Source of the DNA: Cylicocyclus nassatus
Taxonomy: Eukaryota; Nematoda; Chromadorea; Rhabditida; Strongylidae
DNA length: 64,000 nucleotides
Assembly (NCBI GenBank): GCA_958299035.1
Contig: CATQJL010000112.1
Coordinates: 9,462,880 to 9,526,879, forward strand
Direction: 5' to 3'
A model generated the notes under the pieces. The model ran no database searches, was not told the origin of the DNA, and was given only the letters and a program-made list of their open reading frames with translations. Position 1 is the stretch's first letter; each line of letters opens with the position of its first letter. Both the position numbers and the translations under genes were made by a program. Positions 8,450-55,952 of the stretch are shown here, in pieces.

Positions 8450-8829
8450 CAATCCTTGTCTATGTGTTTGTTGTCTATGTAATTTGTTTAAGAATCCCCG
8501 TTCAATTTTCCGCCACCTCGAATTGTTGAATATTTCATGTCTAGTTCCGTTGTGCTTTTTTATTAGGTTGTTCCATAAGTTCGTAGCAGGGCCCGGCACG
8601 AGTCCGTTTCCAGGGTTTTTAAAAACGAAGTCCCCCCTGACTTTCGAGAATTTTACGAAGTCCCCTTTGACCCTTGCCTATCCCCCCCCCCGCCCTCGCC
8701 ATCATAGTCTGGATCAACAAGCGCATGACATACATTTCCAAAGGATCTTTAAGTATTTCCATGACGCCTTTTGACTCCAACAAACCATTGTTGACCATTC
8801 TCATACAGACCTGAGATTGGAAAATTAAA

Positions 8830-10859
8830 TTGAAAAAAATTGAAAAATCCAGCGAAAATCAAGGCTCCGATGGAATATATTAGGTCATTCCGAAAGTAAT
8901 TTCGCTTTTTTCAAACGGGCGCCACATCTGACGGAACAAAGGTTTCTAAGAGAACTTGGTAGCATTCGAAACAGCATTTCATTCTCTTTCTAATGGTTAT
9001 GGAATTGTTGCAAGATAGTCAATGAGCTTTCAAAAAATACCAAAATCTGCGACCTATGCTTTTTGAGATAGCCAAGTTTCACAATTTTTTAAAACTTTCA
9101 TATCAATTGTCAGAAGAAGTTCAAGTGACGATTCGATAGAGCAAACTTCATAGAATACAGTGCAACTTTTTTCTCTTTTCCACAGCTTGTCATACATTTT
9201 TAACAGAATTTTAACTGATGCTACCCATTTCCATACTTGGACAGCTAAATCCTAGTAGAACATCAAACCTTGAGCAGCTTGGGTGTCATTCGATGCAGCT
9301 TTTTCTCCTCTTTCTAATGGGTATTTTTTGTTTCCGATTCGTTTAGTTTCCGGAGATAAAATTATCATAACTCATTTTTTAAGGAGCCTCAGGCTGTACC
9401 CGAAAAACTCGAAATTTGGTATTTCGAACCCGTAAACCCTCACTTGCTTTGTAAAATTAATGCTAACTCATAGTACCATCTTGGTAGTTTCAAATTCCGA
9501 AAAATTATGATGTTTGATGCGATTGTGGTTGAAGTGGGCCTGCCAAAATTTGATGGTTCTGCTAAAAAAATCTATTAAAAAATTGAGGCGAGCACGAGAA
9601 AGGGAAAAAGTAGCGCTGTATTCTATAAGCTTTACTCTATCGAATCTTTACTTGAACTCCTTCTGAGGATTGATATGAAAGGTTCAAAAAATCGTGAAAC
9701 TTGACCATCTCAAAAAGCATGGGTCGCAGATTTCGATTATTTTCTGAAAGCTCATTGACTGTTCTGCAATAATTTTACAACCATTAGAAAGAGAATGAAA
9801 TGCTGCATCGAATGCTACCAAAAACTCTTAAGCTTCTTTGTTCCATCAGATGTGGCGCCCGTTTGAAAAAAAGCGAAATTACTTTCGGAATGACCTAATA
9901 CTATAGAAGACTTCCGGCGGATGGTCTTCCAAGAAGGATGTCCACACATTGTCAATTCAACAAAGGTATCCCTGGCCTGAATTCCCCTAACAGGCTTCAC
10001 CTAACCAAATTTCAGATTACTGAGATGGTAAAGTAAAAAGTATGCAGTATTGGCCATTGCAAGAGCTGGTCAGTATCAAAGTTCGGAAAAATGTTTGTCA
10101 AAACTAAAAAGGTAGTAAATATCAGATCTTAGGCCTGAAAATGTGAACATTCCCTAATTCGAGCTCTATATTAAGGTATGATATACAAGGTAGAAGTCTT
10201 ACCTAATGATTGCTCTATTCATAGAAGTGAAGGTCGGCATGCTAATCAAAAATTGCAAATACAATATCATCCAGATGATTCAAGGTACTCCATATGAACA
10301 GCTGGCCAGATCGTGGCCTACCTATGAGCGGTCGCCATGTGCTTCGTTTGATTCTTCAAGTTAGAGTAAGCATGACCACGCAAAAGCTGCCTTATCGAAC
10401 CTTCAGAATCTAAAGCAGCTCAGACGGTAGAAGTTTTTGCTTTTCAGGGTGACAAATTGGACAACGGCCCTATAGTGATGCTTGCTCGGCTGGAGTAGGC
10501 AGAACTGGCACAGTCATTATGATTGACATCATTCTAAGGAAATTATTTAGCTGCAAGGAAGTCGATGTAAGCATGAAAAGAGAGGAAACGTCAATTGTAA
10601 AAGATTTATATTTTGAATTCAGATAGTAGAGGGTAATCATTACCCTTCGTAACCAACGCGCATCCTGCACCCAGCTCGAGGGTCAATATGCTTTCGTTAT
10701 ACTTAGCGTTCTTGGTTATATAAAGGTGAGTACCGAATGCATTTCATCCGTGATTCCGTTTGTACACTTTTTTTGCAGATCAAATGTCCAAAGTACAAGG
10801 AACGAGTAAACAAGTACATCGAAGATTTCCGAACTACGATTCCTGTTGCACAGTCTTGA
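8830..10859 (+). pseudogene. Captured protein tyrosine phosphatase, frameshifted and split by a MITE
   Basis: Pieces of a classical PTP domain occur in order. Exon 1 (about 8830-8879 plus 9901-9965) gives APMEYTIEDFRRMVFQE. Exon 10,016-10,068 has the QYWP motif. Exon 10,225-10,365 has the WPD loop (WPDRGLP). Exon 10,448-10,566 holds the catalytic P-loop CSAGVGRTG. Exon 10,623-10,725 has LRNQRASC and EGQYAF. The last exon, 10,779-10,859, is followed by AATAAA at 10,922. Single-base indels break the frame near 10,026, before the WPD loop, between 10,481 and 10,482 (the P-loop VMHCS becomes out of frame) and near 10,627. Exon 1 is cut by the foldback element at 8880. With at least four indels plus the insertion, I call it a pseudogene. 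PTPs are a very large family in nematodes, so a source gene is plausible. Confidence 0.7.
8880..9898. mobile_element. Mariner-type foldback MITE inside the PTP exon
   Basis: The ends are TTAGGTCATTCCGAAAGTAA and its inverse (GGAATGACCTAA at 9887-9898), with TA at 8878-8879 and 9899-9900. The arms pair over several hundred bases, including GGGCGCCACATCTGA and AAGAGAATGAAATGCTGCAT. Removing it and one TA rejoins a continuous phosphatase reading frame (GAATAT|ACTATAG), so it landed in coding sequence. Confidence 0.85.
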
Positions 10860-10921
10860 TAACCTTATGAAAGACAGATAATTCAAATTCAAGCCAAACA
10901 GTTGAACGATGAAATGATGAC

Positions 10922-10927
10922 AATAAA
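10922..10927 (+). promoter_or_regulatory. Polyadenylation signal of the captured PTP
   Basis: AATAAA 62 bases past the phosphatase stop codon. It indicates that the 3' end of the source gene was taken along too. Confidence 0.5.
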
Positions 10928-11485
10928 TTAAAGTCTCGAGGCCATGTGTATTGTTGCGTTAGTTGCGCACGATAGACAAATTTAACAAACATTTTCAATG
11001 GCATGACAAATTTTTACCTCCTCTAAACAAAAAACATCTGAGTAAATCGTAAACGTAGCAATTCATCAACAAGTAATAGCGTGCACAGATCATAAAGTAT
11101 TACACGTACAAACAAAGCTTACTTACATGATTGTAAAGCTGATTTTTATTTGTTCCGTCCTCATTTCGTTATGCCATGTTGAGAAGACCCACATATTGCG
11201 AGTGTTCGTAGTGCGTAGCGTAAGCAACCAGAGTTTTGCAGAATTAAGCTCTGGTCCGCGCTCTTCTAGGTAGCGGACAAAAAGCAAGTCGTGGAAATCC
11301 TAAATATCTTCATATTGGTAAAAAAAACCGAGAGCTTGTTGCTTTAGTGACTGCAAAAAGATCTGTGATCGTGATTGCTATCACATCCACCTCAATACAG
11401 TTTTACACCGATGATTCTTCTCGAGGTTATCAACTCATATCACTGTTGAAACTAAAAAAGATGAAGCATGATACGCAGAAAAAAA

Positions 11486-12011
11486 TTAATCAAGATCAGA
11501 GAAGTTTTTAACGCTGTTCGTTTCAGGGGCAGAACCATAACACAAAAAGCAGTCAAATCGCAAATTTTTCTTCAGCCAAACATTCTGATAAGACGAAGTT
11601 GAAAAACTATGATACAATGTTTTGAACGTCAGCATGTTGCAGTAAAGTTTGAAGCAAACAATTAGACAAGTGAAACGCCAAGTGTACAGATTCCCTGCTT
11701 TACACAAAGCCATAAATTCATTATGTAGAGTCACTTACTGGATCGATGTATATGCCACTGCTTGCATAAACCTCAGCAGGGACATCTTCATCGCGTTCTT
11801 TGGCTGCAGGAGCTACATAGAACTCTTCTACTCGAAAACCATCTAAAAGGACAGGTATGGTGCATCCTGAAAAAAACAGAGCTAAAACTATCGAATACAT
11901 TCGAAACTCACATTCTCTTTGAACCTCAACGCTTTCAACCAAATCAAGATGGAAGCACAGGCGCTCGTCTCCTTTGGCGATCTCGACTGTGAAGGGTGGC
12001 ACTGCTACCAC
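11486..12011 (-). pseudogene. Captured p32/C1QBP (MAM33)-like gene fragment
   Basis: Minus-strand exon 11,912 to about 12,011 encodes VPPFTVEIAKGDERLCFHLD. Exon 11,739-11,842 encodes GFRVEEFYVAPAAKERDED and VYASSGIYIDP, then a GTAAGT donor. The intron between them (11,843-11,911) ends CCTTTTAG and joins E-Y-G-F in phase. These match the central beta-sheet and the tyrosine/serine-rich turn of mitochondrial p32 proteins, which form doughnut-shaped trimers in the matrix. A weak C-terminal match (KTLYHSFSTSSYQN, about 11,540-11,615) lacks a clear acceptor. The N-terminal half and mitochondrial presequence were not found. It lies antisense to its neighbours inside the hAT-like element, so I treat it as a captured fragment. 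Confidence in the family is moderate. Confidence 0.55.
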
Positions 12012-12549
12012 AAGAACGGACTAAGGAAACACTTAATGTTTGTGGCAAAGCGATCAAGCGGTCAAAATTTCGCTCAAAGCTGGAATATGGCAATAACGCG
12101 TAAAATGGCGGTGGAGCGCGATATCTAACAAGGCGATTTTCGGTAAAAAAAAGATGATAAAAAACGACGGACAGGGGATGGTATGAAAACGTTTCTATGC
12201 TCAGGGATAGATTTTCGACAGGGGCATCCATCCATGCTAACAAGATCCGAAACTTATGTGAAACGATGAAAATATATGCTCCAGACGATCTCAGATCGTC
12301 TGGTGGCCGTCTGGAGACGATCTAATTTTGGAAAAGGTATTACTTCACATAAGTTTTCAAATCTTTTTACATAATTCTTCCGCAAATAATTTTCTATACG
12401 TATAGTTCAATTTTGGTGTCATATAATTCTGTGTGCGCTGTAAACAAGCGATTTGTTTATTTTAACCTTGCTTTCAAATCGCGCGCACTTTTCGCCATAC
12501 ACGATAGAGCATGTCAATCGTGTGATAGCCTGTCCGAAAAGCTTGTTTT

Positions 12550-13472
12550 CGTTTGGATGTCGTTTATTCTTGACATAGAGGAGAAAGTGAAGGAATTATC
12601 ATATCTTATAATGACTGGCTATGGGTGCTTATGTTTTTTGTATTGTGTCTGTCTGAAACAAATCTGCAAATTGCAATTTGAAGACTTGAGACTATGGTCT
12701 ATCCTGGATCCCAGCCTTAACGTGGCTTTCTTTTTGGAGTACTCCTTAATGCTTTCAAATGAGGACTTTTAGATGTTGGAGTTGGATAGTGGAGAGTTAG
12801 CGATGATCAAGCTGGTGACATCTACGGAAGTGCCTCAAAGATTTGAAAGATCTTGGGTTTAGTGACTTAGAGGTAATTTCTTGTTCATTTTCATTGCTCC
12901 TGTTTGTTGCATGAATTTTTTGGTGCTTTCATCACTACTCACGTTTTTCATCGAGTTTTCCTTGTGTAATGTGTATTCGGTCTGTTTAGGTTTCAAAGCC
13001 AATTAAACCATTCCTGGAAACGAGCGTGTCAGATCCTCAATTGGCAAGCATCCAGATCCACGAGCAAACTTCCGTAAGACTACTAATTTTCCTAGAAACT
13101 GAGTTGATCTCTCGATCACTTACTGCACCATAAATGTTTCTCTCAAATTCTTGTTTAGGAATGCCATCTCAGGAGCGACTCCCTCTATATTCGTTTGAGG
13201 GTTGCTACGCTACTAGATGAAGTGGTAGCTTTGCTTGAAGAGTCAGCAGAGATTCTGAAGTCTTTAAGAGGAGGGCATGTAGATGACACGACTTTGACAG
13301 AATTCAAGTGAGACGTTTAGTGCCGTATCTTTGTGTACTGCTCACTCATACCTTTTCCAGTGCGAAGCTGTTGGCTGTTTGCGAAGAGAGTCTGCAATAT
13401 TATCGAGGATCTTGGTGGTATAGAAAGAGCAAAGAAAAGATCGCTGAACTTGTTGAGAGGGTCAGTGGATGA
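12550..13472 (+). CDS. Captured coiled-coil protein gene, function unknown
   Basis: The last three exons are clean and in phase: 12,990-13,073, 13,159-13,307 and 13,361-13,472 (TGA at 13,470). They follow an exon ending 12,872 (KDLKDLGFSDLE). A likely first exon begins near 12,559 (MSFILDIEEKVKELSYLI). The protein is helical and acidic, with heptad-like LLDEVVALLEESAEILKSL and a final SWWYRKSKEKIAELVERV. The exon around 12,775-12,872 needs a frame change to link 5' and 3' parts, so it may be broken there. The overall pattern is faintly like dynactin subunit 3 (p22/24), but I cannot confirm that. It lies inside the hAT-like element, same strand as the PTP piece. Confidence 0.45.
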
Positions 13473-14676
13473 AAACCTAAAAATCTTGGAAAAGATTTTG
13501 AAATTTTCCAGATTTGGTCTTTTGGTCCAGGCAGAGCCAAAGCTAACATTCTCATAAATGGAATATCTAACTTATAGACCTATATGGGACAGCAGTGAGT
13601 GACTTGCTATTCAATTTCCACCCTCCTCAAGCTTTTCAGAATCCGAGCTGGACATGTGCAAAAATTTTTTTCCGGGGCTTTGCCCCGGACCCCACAAAAA
13701 CGATGTCCCCTTTGCTTTTTGCTCCAAAAACGAAGTCCAGCCTGCTTCTAGACGATCTGTGCCGGGCCCTGGTTCGTAGCTTTTCTTTCTTGTCCTCGTT
13801 CCTCTGAAAGGCGGTTGCTTTGCGGAGATGCGCATATCGTTCAAAAGAGTTATATGAACTTTACAATGAACCTACTGGTTTCGATGAAAGACTAACAAGC
13901 TAAGGCTATTCAGGACGAAGGCGCAGAAGCAGCATCACTTGAACGGACGCAAACTCGGCGCGCACGTATCTTCTTCGTTGTAAACCCTGCGCTTCATGCG
14001 CTCTGCGGCTGATAAAGCCGCGTTCGCGCCCAAAAGTATTGCGCCTTTGTCAAGCAGTAGCTCATATAATGCTTCAGTTTCCAAACGTGGAATTTTCAAA
14101 CGACAAAAAGAAGTTTTCGACATCTGCTTGTTTTTTCTTACAAAAAAAAGTGTTTTTACAGGGACTTCTTTGCCGAGTAATAGGTAATGGGTAATGAGTA
14201 TAAAATGGCGCTTTTTCGTCAATGTGAGACAAAAAGGATGAGATTGCAGGACTGGCAGGAGGTTCTGTGTTAATAATTACTGGACAAGAACAAAACGGTC
14301 GATCATACCGCACGCAACCCAAATGCACCGTTAGAACGAATCCCACTGCGAAAATGACCTCAAGAAACAGGCTCAGTGAACTTTCTGCATGACTCCATAC
14401 GGCAAATGTCGTCAAAACTATCTTGCGATTTAACGGGGAGGTATATTGGTATTATCCCCAGACCTCGCCCAGCCACATGGTCTTTTGTATGGCTCTCCTA
14501 CAAAATAAATGAAATATGCCTGTTCCGGCTGAGTTTTAGAGAAACGATGTTGAAAATCTGACGGAAGGGGGCAGAAGGTTGCGCGCAGCAGCGAAGATTA
14601 CATTATCGACTGAAATTGACAAAACCTTGTCATTTCGCTGGTTTATGAAAACGCTACGAGCTTATGAATGACCTAA

Positions 14677-16971: not shown

Positions 16972-18614
<1,643 letters not shown>

Positions 18615-43751: not shown

Positions 43752-44073
43752 CAGGGCCTGGCACCAGCTGGCACGGGGCAAGCTGGATATCGTTTTTGGG
43801 GCAAAAAGCAAAGGGGGTTTCGTTTTTGTGGGCGAAGACATACGCAAAATTGGCGGCGACGACCTTTTTTTTTTTTTTTTTTTTTTTTAGTCGACGTTTC
43901 GTTTTTTGGGGGATTTTGGGGATTTTTTTAGGATTTTAGGGGGGATATCGTTGAGGATCAAAGGGGACTTCGTAAAATTTCCCAAAAGTCAAGGGGGACT
44001 TCGTAAAAATTGGCAAATTTCAAAGGGGACTTCGTTTTCAAAATTCCCTGGTGCCAGCTCGTGCCGAGCCCTG
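43752..44073. mobile_element. 322-bp hAT-like MITE, same family as the 5.2-kb element
   Basis: The ends are CAGGGCCTGGCAC and GTGCCGAGCCCTG with a perfect 8-bp duplication ACTCAGAG (43,744-43,751 and 44,074-44,081). The left subterminal region (GGGGCAAAAAGCAAAGGGGG) matches the inverted right side of 8,587-13,771. The right one (repeated AAGGGGACTTCGT units) matches its inverted left side. A poly-T run is in the middle. Confidence 0.9.
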
Positions 44074-44720: not shown

Positions 44721-45427
44721 CTTAGGCCTAAGGCATACCTCACGCGATTCGGCCGAATCGCCACTTTTACGCGACTTGGCGATTTGCCAGATTTCTACAG
44801 ATTTATCGTGCGCGCTTCTCGAACGCATAGGCGGGTAGCTTGTTTAAGTTGTTGTAAATAGAGAAGGTTCTGACCAAAGGAAGCGCACTAAGACGAATGA
44901 CAACGAGTCGCTGTTACGCCAAATCGCGTAGCGACCGGAATCGCGGTCTTAGGCCTTAAGGGCCGGGCATACTTCACGCGATTGCAGTCGCGACGCGATT
45001 TGGCAATATTCCAACTGTTTATAGCTCGCTGTAAACACCTTTCAAATGTAGAGAAGATAGGGCATTTTATCAAGCCATGTAAGTTATACACACTATGCAT
45101 GTGCAGTTTGCTAGTGTTGAATCTGAAGAATTCTGGCGAATTGCCAAATCGCGTCGCGACTGAAATCGCCTGAAGTATGCCCGGCCCCTTAGGCGTGGGA
45201 GTACCTCACGCGATTTCAGTCGCCACGCGTCTGGCAATTTGGCGAACGTCTTCAAATCCAATACTGGCAAACCCCAAAAGCGCAGCATGTATAACTTTTG
45301 TAAGTTTATAAAATGCCCTGTCTTCCTCCGTACATTCAGAACAACTCCTTACGATAAGTTATGAACAGTTGTAGTATAGCCAAATCGCTCGCGACTGAAA
45401 TCGCGTGAGGTATGCCCAGGGCCTTAT
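44721..45427. repeat. Three adjacent foldback MITEs
   Basis: About 44,721-44,958, 44,953-45,193 and 45,190-45,427. Each begins with a GGCATACCTCACGCGATT-like arm (the first and third best) and ends with its inverse (AATCGC, then GAGGTATGCCC). The inner part of the arms is CGCGACGCGATTTGGCAA. They lie almost end to end. A degraded relative is near 55,300-55,350. Confidence 0.75.
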
Positions 45428-45568: not shown

Positions 45569-46672
45569 CAGGGTTGAGCGTGGGGTCAGGCGCGCCCGAC
45601 CTGGGGGGGTCGTACTGGGGTAAGACAGAGGGGGGGGGGGTCGTGATTAGGAATCGAATTCGTTCGATTGAGGAGATACTACGATTAAGGTGAAGAAGAA
45701 AAGCGCTAGTTTAGTGGATATCGCGACCTCACTAGTACTGAAGGAATGAACGGTCTCAAACAGCATACTGATTGATTCCACAATCGAAGTTTCGGCCAAA
45801 ACTCAAATCTTCATCTTCTACCTTGACATATTATAAATTCATCAAGGAAGCTTGCTGTGTGAAATGGGTATCATTTCCGAGCACGTCAGATTACCTCTAT
45901 GAGCCCTACAAACCATTATTTACTGCATTATCTAATGTTTCTCAACGACTAAAAAGCGTGATTTTCAAACATGATTAACTTGTTTTCAAAAAAAGTCAAT
46001 TTTTTTGTACTCGTAACAAAGTATTGTTCCCTACTAGTCTAATCTAAAAATCGCGCTTTGTATCGCTTGCAAATAGTGCAGTAAGAAATAATGCCAAAAT
46101 TCCGACCGGCGCGTTTTTCGCCATGACTGCTTCAACTTCACGGATTACCACAAGGCCGAAACAAGTCGAATACTGTGGAATCTTCGAGGGTTGTGCTAGC
46201 GATTCACATAAAACTTGAATAAAAAAGCTTTTTCAATGATAAAGTTAATCGGGTCAGGCGCAACCCCACAAAAGGTCAGGCCGCCTGAGCTTTTGAGGGG
46301 TTGCGCCTGACCCGATTAACTTGTTTTCAAAATCTAAAAATCGCTCCATTTCTGCTATGAGTATTGAACTCAAAGCCTCTTCTTGCAATACTGCAAATTT
46401 GGAGCCAAACAATACACCCCTGTGGGAATTATAGCTCTAAAAGTTGGGCTATCCAAAATCCAAAACTTGCCGTCAAGTTGCGTGTGCTGTGCAATCGCAG
46501 AAAGTCGACCTACAGACCTCCAAAAAACAAGAACCTCCCAAAAACGGCTGATCTCTTCGGATTATCACAGCCTGAGGTCCTGGAGGTGAAGCAGGGGGGT
46601 CGTTTAGGGGCTTTCACTGGGGGGGGGGGGTCGTTTTGGAAAGACTTGTGCCTGACCTCTTGCTCAACCCTG
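45569..46672. mobile_element. hAT-like element with 8-bp duplication GTTATGAC
   Basis: The ends are CAGGGTTGAGCGTGGGGTCA and the inverse (ACCTCTTGCTCAACCCTG ending 46,672). The duplication GTTATGAC is perfect (45,561-45,568 and 46,673-46,680). It is 1,104 bp. Subterminal G runs (GGGGGTCGT) occur on both sides. The plus-strand frame starting 46,364 runs out through the right end and is not a transposase. Confidence 0.85.
46244..46320. repeat. Perfect hairpin, 24-bp arms
   Basis: GTTAATCGGGTCAGGCGCAA plus CCCC at 46,244-46,267 is exactly inverted at 46,297-46,320. The 29-base loop contains GGTCAGGCCGCCTGAGC, a further partial palindrome. It lies inside the hAT-like element and shares GGTCAGGCG with that element's end. 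Confidence 0.8.
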
Positions 46673-54392: not shown

Positions 54393-55952
54393 TATACTTG
54401 GGTCCGAATCGAATAGAAATTCGATCATTCGAATAAAACATTCGAATATATTCGTATTCGAAATTCGATATTCGGAGTTCTTCCATTTTCGAATAATATT
54501 CGAAACTCGAATAATCAAAAAACAGGGTTTCGAATAAAATTCGAAAACTCGAATAATCAAAAAACGAGGTTTCGAATATTATTCGAAAACTCGAATAATC
54601 AAAAAACGAGGTTTCGAATATTATTCGAAAACTCGAATAATCAAAAAACGGGGTTTCGAATAGATTTTATTCGAATGTTTTATTCGAATGTACTCTGTAT
54701 TCAGATTATTCGACTTTGTTGCAGAGCCAAATGCTGAGTATCAAGCTCACTTCGTCCGCGTTTTTTTTCGCAAAACTCGGTAATGCATCTTTTGCAACCG
54801 GTACACCTTTGAACTGTATGGAGAGTCGCATTCTTCCGAGTGCTTGCGACAGTAAAAAAATCATATGTGGATTTTAATTGATGCTTTTTCGATCAATGAG
54901 ATTGTTCGCACTGCTACTGGCACCAAATCAGCAAAAAAGATATCAAATTTAAGCTCATGTTCTGAGTTCATACTGAATTGAAATGGCTGTTCTTCTTTCT
55001 TTGCATTGCTCATGCTTGGTACGCAAAGCCCACACTAATGAGCACTCTTGTTCGCATAAATTATTGCAAAACTGCCTATTCTTACCTTGGAGTTTTTTGC
55101 GAATTGGTGTATATTGCGTAAAGGACATCGCAGTTGTAGTGCAGGATTAGACGGTTTAGATCGCCGTACGCGATTTGCTAGTTACGAGATGTCTTCAGAT
55201 GTAATGGCAGCTTACCACAATTGTTTAGCGTGTACAACATACTAAAAAGATAAATGCCCTGCATTCTGCACTTTCAAAATAGGTTTTGGACATTTGAGTG
55301 TTGCCATACCACGTCGCACTGAAATGCCTGCAGTATGCCCGGAAATAAAGTTAATTCTGGTGTACATCAGTCTCTTTCAGACCATATGAAGAAGAATCTT
55401 TTGGGCACAGCATAAAAATTTATATCGACTGCTTTTTTAGATCGCCCAATAATGGGTAAAATATGACTTTTTGTTGATGTATAGACTAGTTGCCGACCGA
55501 CTTTATCGACTTTTGGAAAATCTTGAGCTGCGGGGCTGGGAGTTGGTACAAAGGGGTAAGTGAGGGTGCTGATTGAAACCGAAATCTATTTTATTGATTT
55601 CAGCAATTTTTGGAAAATTTTGAGCTAGGAGTTGGTATAGAGGATACTAGGGGGGGGGGGGGCTGATTATGATTGGATCGGCTTTAGCCAGATATGTCGG
55701 CATGTTTGAGATGTGATTGCTTTAGTTATTCGATAAATCATTCGAATATTTATTCGAAATTCGACTTCCAATGTTCGAATATATTCGATATTTATTCATT
55801 CGATATTTTTGATTTTCCGTATTTATTCGAAATTCATTCATTCGATATTTTTGATTTTCCGAATTTATTCGATATTCGTTTATTCGAAATTTTTTTCGAA
55901 TTTATTCGATATTCATTCATTCGATGAAAAATTTTCGAATTACCCAAGTATA
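54393..55952. mobile_element. Foldback element with ATTCGAAT-palindrome arms and 8-bp duplication
   Basis: TATACTTGGGT at the left and ACCCAAGTATA at the right, flanked by ATTGCTAT on both sides (54,385-54,392 and 55,953-55,960). It is 1,560 bp. The arms (54,400-54,720 and 55,720-55,940) are built of ATTCGAA/TTCGAAT units that can fold in many ways. The 8-bp duplication suggests hAT or a related superfamily. The interior is mostly anonymous and holds a degraded CGCGATTT-type MITE remnant. No transposase. Confidence 0.85.
54505..54665. repeat. Tandem repeat, 42-bp unit, about 3.8 copies
   Basis: Units start ACTCGAATAATCAAAAAAC at 54,505, 54,547, 54,589 and 54,631, a spacing of exactly 42. Units 2-4 are nearly identical, so expansion is recent. 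Each unit contains the palindrome TTCGAATATTATTCGAA. Confidence 0.95.

Follow-up and report, generated by a model that had tools for sequence, protein, structure and literature searches.

Transposons with terminal inverted repeats (TIRs) that carry pieces of host DNA are known in animals as Pack-TIRs. A survey of 100 animal genomes lists 370 Pack-TIRs, of which 208 belong to the hAT superfamily as the commonest carrier and four are from the worm reference genome; multicopy examples are rare (four among the 100 genomes), the method takes one best parental match of 80-120% length, and the FoSTeST model is given as a template-switching route to capture (PMC8277862). Turmoil-1 of C. elegans is a Harbinger element in which two gene fragments of 131-205 bp lie inside long inverted terminal repeats, with one full-length copy described (PMC2572040). 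The element reported here occupies positions 8587-13771 of a 64,000-nucleotide stretch of Cylicocyclus nassatus DNA (contig CATQJL010000112.1, positions 9,462,880 to 9,526,879), which is referred to as the window. It is very probably a multi-donor, multicopy non-autonomous Pack-hAT of the hAT superfamily, which holds pieces of four host genes acquired at the DNA level in at least three capture events and which a hAT transposase acting in trans would have moved to new sites. The core of this reading is supported because three more complete copies with their own target site duplications (TSDs) were seen, as were three donor loci that showed no transposon ends, and the same copies and donors uphold the original prediction of a hAT-like element that captures host DNA with its introns and moves it.

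The 5.2 kb between window positions 8587 and 13771 form one element with 13-bp TIRs that agree at 13/13 positions and a perfect 8-bp TSD. Exact ends and a perfect duplication had been predicted, and both were reproduced at the same positions. A CAGGG terminus is usual for hAT elements. The short TIR is of the CAG...CTG type and its 13-bp sequence is present in all four complete copies, while the 8-bp TSD, a hAT-type length, is perfect in 4/4 copies that were read to both ends. The features of the element are listed below by window position and strand, where C numbers denote contigs and L numbers stretches that were read.

8579-8586, no strand: left TSD, GTTCGTAG, the same as the right copy at 13772-13779.
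8587-8599, plus strand: left TIR, CAGGGCCCGGCAC, 13/13 against the right end; it also bounds the copies L054/L057, L055 and L056.
8587-8690, plus strand: left-end transposon module with subterminal repeats ACGAAGTCCCC, about 80% identical to the right end of a 322-bp element and about 78% to an 845-bp relative.
8696-8826, minus strand: captured CNOT3/Not3 exon fragment, 87% identical to C223:58597133-58597264.
8880-9898, no strand: palindromic element of about 1 kb (1,019 bp), which we take to be mariner-like, a later insertion at TA (TA at 8878-8879 and 9899-9900).
9899-12009, plus about 30 bp at about 8850-8879, no strand: captured block of protein tyrosine phosphatase (PTP) and p32, one contiguous donor segment, 78-80% identical to C223:52154898-52156913.
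9905-10859, plus strand: frameshifted exons of the PTP catalytic domain, through to the stop codon; Pfam Y_phosphatase 7.2e-18 with exon pieces joined, the donor frame being open.
10480-10483, plus strand: position at which the PTP HC(X5)R motif has lost 1 nt in four copies but not in the donor (alignment).
11165-12009, minus strand: p32/C1QBP (MAM33) 3' exons with introns; MAM33 2.7e-9 on joined exon pieces, donor 7.7e-15.
12007-12571, no strand: transposon backbone that separates the PTP-p32 block from the EFL1 block, with 30 backbone-only matches; it adjoins the right end directly in relatives without EFL1 in L051 and L052.
12572-13648 (donor homology 12645-13656), plus strand: captured EFL1 block with introns, pieces of six exons; Pfam EFL1 PF25118 3.7e-23.
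13649-13771, plus strand: right-end transposon module, 90-92% identical to right ends in L052 and L051 and about 80% to the 322-bp element.
13759-13771, minus strand: right TIR, 13/13 against the left end.
13772-13779, no strand: right TSD, GTTCGTAG, the same as the left copy.

A scan of the window (start CAG/TAG/CAA, spacing 100-12000 bp, identical 8-bp TSD, at least 10/13 TIR matches) gave three pairs, which are 8587-13771, the 322-bp element with the TSD ACTCAGAG, and 45569-46672. A control scan with any termini gave 14 pairs, of which two others (44995-45152 and 54435-54681) also agree at 13/13 positions, so that a TIR/TSD pair alone is not decisive and it is the further copies that decide. 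A search for other copies, which had been suggested as a check, yielded three that were read end to end, on C316 (L054 and L057), at C223:14.27 Mb (L055) and at C1:19.39 Mb (L056), each of which has both TIRs, the same cargo and a perfect TSD of its own (TCCCTAGG, TGCAGGCA and ATCAGGAG). As predicted, both ends therefore belong to one element, and an origin of the ends from two unrelated insertions is ruled out by these three doubly-ended copies. The four complete copies are 0.001-0.022 apart, given as substitutions per site since MAFFT identities are distorted by inserts and were set aside. The flanks of the window copy (about 300 and 280 bp) have no match to the flanks of L055 or L056, and a single 131-bp stretch, 76% identical and inverted, is shared with L054, in a comparison that covered the left of the two C316 flanks; the copies are thus not duplicates of one region. 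Complete copies with distinct TSDs lie on C112, C316, C223 and C1, and the captured cargo has transposed to new sites. In total the PTP-p32 cargo is found at at least six loci (the window, C316:10.48, C223:14.27, C1:19.39, C326:0.79 and C1:26.15-26.17 Mb) among the best 40 of 932 candidates, of which those at C326:0.79 Mb and C1:26.1 Mb come from search rows alone and do not enter the counts of ends and TSDs.

Several of the copies carry further insertions. The palindromic element, whose outer arms of 34 bp are perfect with the TA included, is present in the C316 copy and absent from the C223 and C1 copies, and since it was inserted later the element proper measures about 4.2 kb. The C316 copy (L054) has at about window 12187 a 1.1-kb insertion with inverted ends starting GGCGCTATTCCGCT and an apparent AACGTTTC duplication, and the C1:19.39 Mb copy (L056) is interrupted at about window 12075 by 0.8 kb of inserted DNA whose inverted ends are long (ACAAGGGAAGTTCACTTAGTCGAAGTGGCGATTT). 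At C1:26142065-26168133 one PTP-p32 element is, from the search rows, apparently interrupted by an insertion of about 18 kb.

Comparison of the cargo exons with the genome, a second check suggested with the original prediction, led to three donor loci that have no transposon ends in the stretches read. The donor of the PTP-p32 block, C223:52154898-52156913, matches window 9897-11308 (80%) and 11455-12009 (78%) and nothing else of the element, and it is the sole match without transposon backbone among the best 40 of 932 candidates. In this donor the PTP and p32 genes stand tail to tail with open frames and an intact catalytic HCSAGVGRTG, and no TIR at up to two mismatches occurs in the 5,001 bp around it. 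PTP and p32 were thus taken together as one piece of about 2.1 kb which comprises the 3' halves of a convergent gene pair; the predicted PTP with introns and p32 fragment on the opposite strand are both borne out by Pfam, but as captures they are not separate, having one donor locus. The edge of this cargo is sharp: the donor match stops at window 12009, and the 30 backbone-only matches, from which carriers and donor are excluded, start at 12007 or later, ten of them exactly at query base 2107 (window 12007) and none earlier. The EFL1 donor, C112:77900291-77901238, is about 80% identical to window 12680-13600 by BLAST with its frame open, and there is no TIR at up to three mismatches in the surrounding 1,701 bp. 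The CNOT3 donor at C223:58.6 Mb (58597133-58597264) is an open exon in a region where two exons of a Not3/CNOT3 protein can be read (PF04065 5.8e-12; PDB CNOT3 chain 6.1e-9; splicing by eye), again with no TIR at up to three mismatches in 901 bp around it. The fragment at 8696-8826 has no Pfam match by itself and had been missed by the original prediction, which counted three host genes where four are present. With all 8/8 candidates scored, the CNOT3 block occurs at the six PTP-p32 loci, at one locus that has EFL1 without PTP-p32 (C1:39.38 Mb) and at its donor. Apart from the element itself, neither the window nor the 200 kb that flank it (100 kb per side) contain a match to the cargo pieces, which rules out a donor within 100 kb.

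For PTP, another assembly of the exon pieces gives Y_phosphatase at 1e-16; of the seven donor PTP exons one was read by eye in the alignment only and is counted as non-exon in the PTP-p32 divergence. The p32 last exon alone reaches MAM33 at 7.7e-4, below the cut-off, the two-exon open frame of p32 alone has no Pfam match, and a PDB search with the joined p32 pieces returned three unrelated matches with a best E of 0.17. The joined p32 peptides hold a few intron-derived residues because the exon 2 start that was used has no AG before it (by eye a TTTTCAG acceptor lies slightly further in), and the end of exon 3 was set by its stop codon. The third gene, which had been called a coiled-coil gene, is EFL1 by its Pfam match. 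In the PDB its cargo aligns at E 7.4e-4 with residues 752-838 of chain 5anb_K, which is annotated as elongation factor Tu GTP-binding domain-containing protein 1 (EFL1), and a second match at 685 is collinear with the first but not significant alone. Two designed coiled-coil proteins score slightly better (1.3e-4 and 6.7e-4), which may explain the earlier label.

Since the introns are kept and align to the donors, capture took place at the DNA level, and a retro-copy origin of the cargo is ruled out. Non-exon divergence between cargo and donors is 22-23% for both large blocks, and exon divergence is 12-13% for PTP-p32 and 15-16% for EFL1, a pattern that fits a donor under constraint and a copy that drifts after capture. 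Compared with the donors, all four copies that were read are one base short in the PTP catalytic motif and have other PTP indels in common, as well as a 10-nt deletion close to where the p32 last exon ends (by alignment). An EFL1 exon also shows a small deletion in all four, where the EFL1-only copy L059 carries a different lesion. A further 1-nt p32 deletion is confined to the window and C316 copies, and L056 is without 297 bp of PTP.

It is proposed that the element would have gained one CNOT3 exon, the 2.1-kb PTP/p32 segment and a 1.1-kb piece of EFL1 from the three donor loci, by template switching to a distant gene while the element was being repaired or replicated. The composite, whose cargo is presumably without protein function, would then be moved by a hAT transposase that acts in trans on the ends. 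The hAT dimerisation domain is found above the Pfam cut-off at 16 places in the genome, none of them tied to the ends of this element, and one of the genome's hAT transposases may be the mobilising enzyme. As to order, sequential capture would be the simplest; EFL1 as the first capture was considered and set aside, as the divergence figures do not simply fit.

Several points weigh against this account. No autonomous element with CAGGGCCCGGCAC-type ends was found, and no transposase-like open reading frame was seen in L051 or L052, which were read by eye and not by profile search. The donors, at only 78-87% identity to the cargo, are the best matches without transposon parts and not proven source alleles, and the stretches read around them measure 0.9-5 kb each (5001, 1701 and 901 bp). 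Transposition is judged from TSDs and flanks. Finally, the order of capture conflicts with a simple clock, as non-exon divergence is 7-8% between L059 and the large-element group and 22-23% between PTP-p32 and its donor; in the same EFL1 comparison the exons of L059 differ from the group by 13%, and divergence higher in exons than at non-exon sites is unexplained by plain neutral drift.

These figures bear on a variant of the preferred account, and not one exclusive of it, in which EFL1/CNOT3 and PTP-p32 were captured by different Pack elements and joined afterwards, the elements without PTP-p32 being a sister module set or the result of losses. The EFL1 block occurs at 17 loci, six with PTP-p32 and eleven without a PTP-p32 match (all 26 candidates scored). 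A backbone match lies beside EFL1 at ten of these eleven, the eleventh, C305:26.58 Mb, having no backbone row and the least certain state; L059 was read over 2,521 bp and L061 over 551 bp, and the others are known from search rows. The two large blocks are equally diverged from their donors at non-exon sites (22-23%), yet L059 is only 7-8% from the group, so the clock puts the capture of PTP-p32 before the split of L059; L059, and it appears ten other EFL1 loci as well, would then lack it through loss or exchange. Consistent with separate modules, the 754 bp to the left of the window-12007 equivalent in L059 have no match to the large element and hold no left end; the C1:39.38 Mb locus has no left end in the 551 bp read. 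However, the clock is crude, with about 350 non-exon sites, a single EFL1-only copy (L059) and exon edges set by hand, and fewer events are required if capture was plainly sequential, with EFL1 and CNOT3 taken up before PTP-p32. Joining of modules is a serious possibility that falls somewhat short of being probable. At C316:87.088-87.136 Mb the search rows place three EFL1-only loci within 50 kb in both orientations, possibly a local duplication.

That the cargo is a functional chimeric protein or regulatory RNA kept by selection appears very unlikely on the state of the sequence: splice sites and the poly(A) signal are partly retained and the composite persists at at least six loci, but the four copies share the PTP frameshifts, one of them in the catalytic motif, the p32 10-nt deletion and the EFL1 exon deletion, and L056 is without its 297 bp of PTP. 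Most improbable is a compound (macro) transposon in which two related elements flank a segment of neighbouring genes that is moved whole, for although PTP and p32 are neighbours in one donor and a compound Ds-like element is known in maize (PMC3260210), the three donor loci are scattered over two contigs (C223:52.15 Mb, C223:58.6 Mb and C112:77.9 Mb), backbone lies between the EFL1 and PTP-p32 blocks and relatives have backbone without EFL1 or without PTP-p32, so that a single macrotransposon segment is rejected.

The Pack-hAT has relatives in the window and elsewhere in the genome. One of these is a miniature inverted-repeat transposable element (MITE).

43752-44073, plus strand: MITE of 322 bp whose ends are related to those of the large element but which forms a subfamily of its own, TSD ACTCAGAG (genome matches and TSDs of the copies read).

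The left 85 bp of the large element resemble the right end of the MITE (score 78, best of 200 shuffles 21) and the right 81 bp its left end (score 80 against a shuffle maximum of 23), whereas the crossed pairs score no better than shuffles. The two elements thus match in reversed orientation with ends about 80% identical, which agrees with the predicted match of the asymmetric subterminal regions. Among the best 40 of 4253 first-look candidates, which were scored, 39 are full length at 96-100%, own copy included. In 28 copies read from these 40, again with the own copy, the 8-bp TSD is perfect in 27 and 7/8 in one, and their mean pairwise mismatch is 0.54% (about 99.5% identity); as the best-scoring copies favour similar ones, 'young' holds for that subset. 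The MITE family has a recently amplified set, seen at window 43752-44073 and in L001-L008 and L010-L029. The 322-bp copy had been taken as the cargo-free form of the large element. With near-identical ends in the subfamily (0.5% mean difference) against about 80% identity to the large element, this is rejected, and the 322-bp element is, as judged from its ends, a distinct sister MITE subfamily. A nearer candidate for the cargo-free form is the complete 845-bp relative at L051:9046-9890 (TSD TTAGTGGA), because in addition to the two ends it has some of the internal backbone, at 68-78%. L051 and L052 also hold three partial relatives, for which no left end was found. Their right ends are 90-92% identical to that of the large element, and sequence like window 12551-12571 and leftwards adjoins them within about 20-40 bp; these three, like the 845-bp relative, have no EFL1 between the backbone and the right end.

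Elsewhere in the window, 45569-46672 is a third hAT-like element of another family, with the TIR CAGGGTTGAGC and a perfect 8-bp TSD GTTATGAC, and 17500-18600 holds about 1 kb of (CA)n dinucleotide repeat that is open in several frames. An Rfam search gave 0 matches.

The donors, cargo-free relatives, part-cargo relatives and several full copies are all found in one assembly, so that junctions and the phylogeny of the copies can serve as a direct test of the ways in which host DNA enters cut-and-paste transposons, by gap filling or by template switching with transposition and in one step or many. Tentatively, this may be a long-lived hAT lineage that goes on gaining host-gene pieces, by separate captures of CNOT3, EFL1 and the PTP-p32 pair, and trades modules between elements, as a Pack-hAT family that re-disperses multi-gene chimeras repeatedly and from which small RNAs directed at the donor genes could also arise. 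The statement that no well described hAT capture was known from nematodes has to be narrowed, since Turmoil-1 (PMC2572040) and the worm Pack-TIRs (PMC8277862) are earlier cases of worm DNA transposons with captured gene fragments. The literature matches listed, with subscription papers outside the search, include no amplified Pack-hAT of a nematode that combines several donors. Under the single-parent rule that the methods of the animal survey suggest, multi-donor elements would probably have failed (PMC8277862).

Like plant Pack-MULE and Pack-TYPE elements, which capture and shuffle coding DNA in plants, the element is a non-autonomous DNA transposon (PMC8903248). It is closer to the maize Ds2 and Ds-like elements, non-autonomous hATs with captured exons and introns from other chromosomes, but these are from a plant and have one gene's fragment per capture example, with no amplified multi-donor composite among the examples given (PMC3260210). 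With Turmoil-1 it shares a nematode DNA transposon as carrier, pieces of unrelated genes, an intron (in one Turmoil-1 piece) and degeneracy, and it differs in being hAT-like with short TIRs and in having pieces of up to 2.1 kb from four genes (PMC2572040). The features of Pack-TIRs are all found, as host DNA lies between the ends, the donors show no linked TIR in the stretches read, introns are retained and transposition followed capture. As in the animal Pack-TIRs, a TIR element with a TSD carries host DNA and the carrier is a hAT, and unlike them the large element draws on three donor loci and four genes and its composite occurs at at least six loci (PMC8277862). It is an unusually clear animal case of a transposon that shuffles gene parts.

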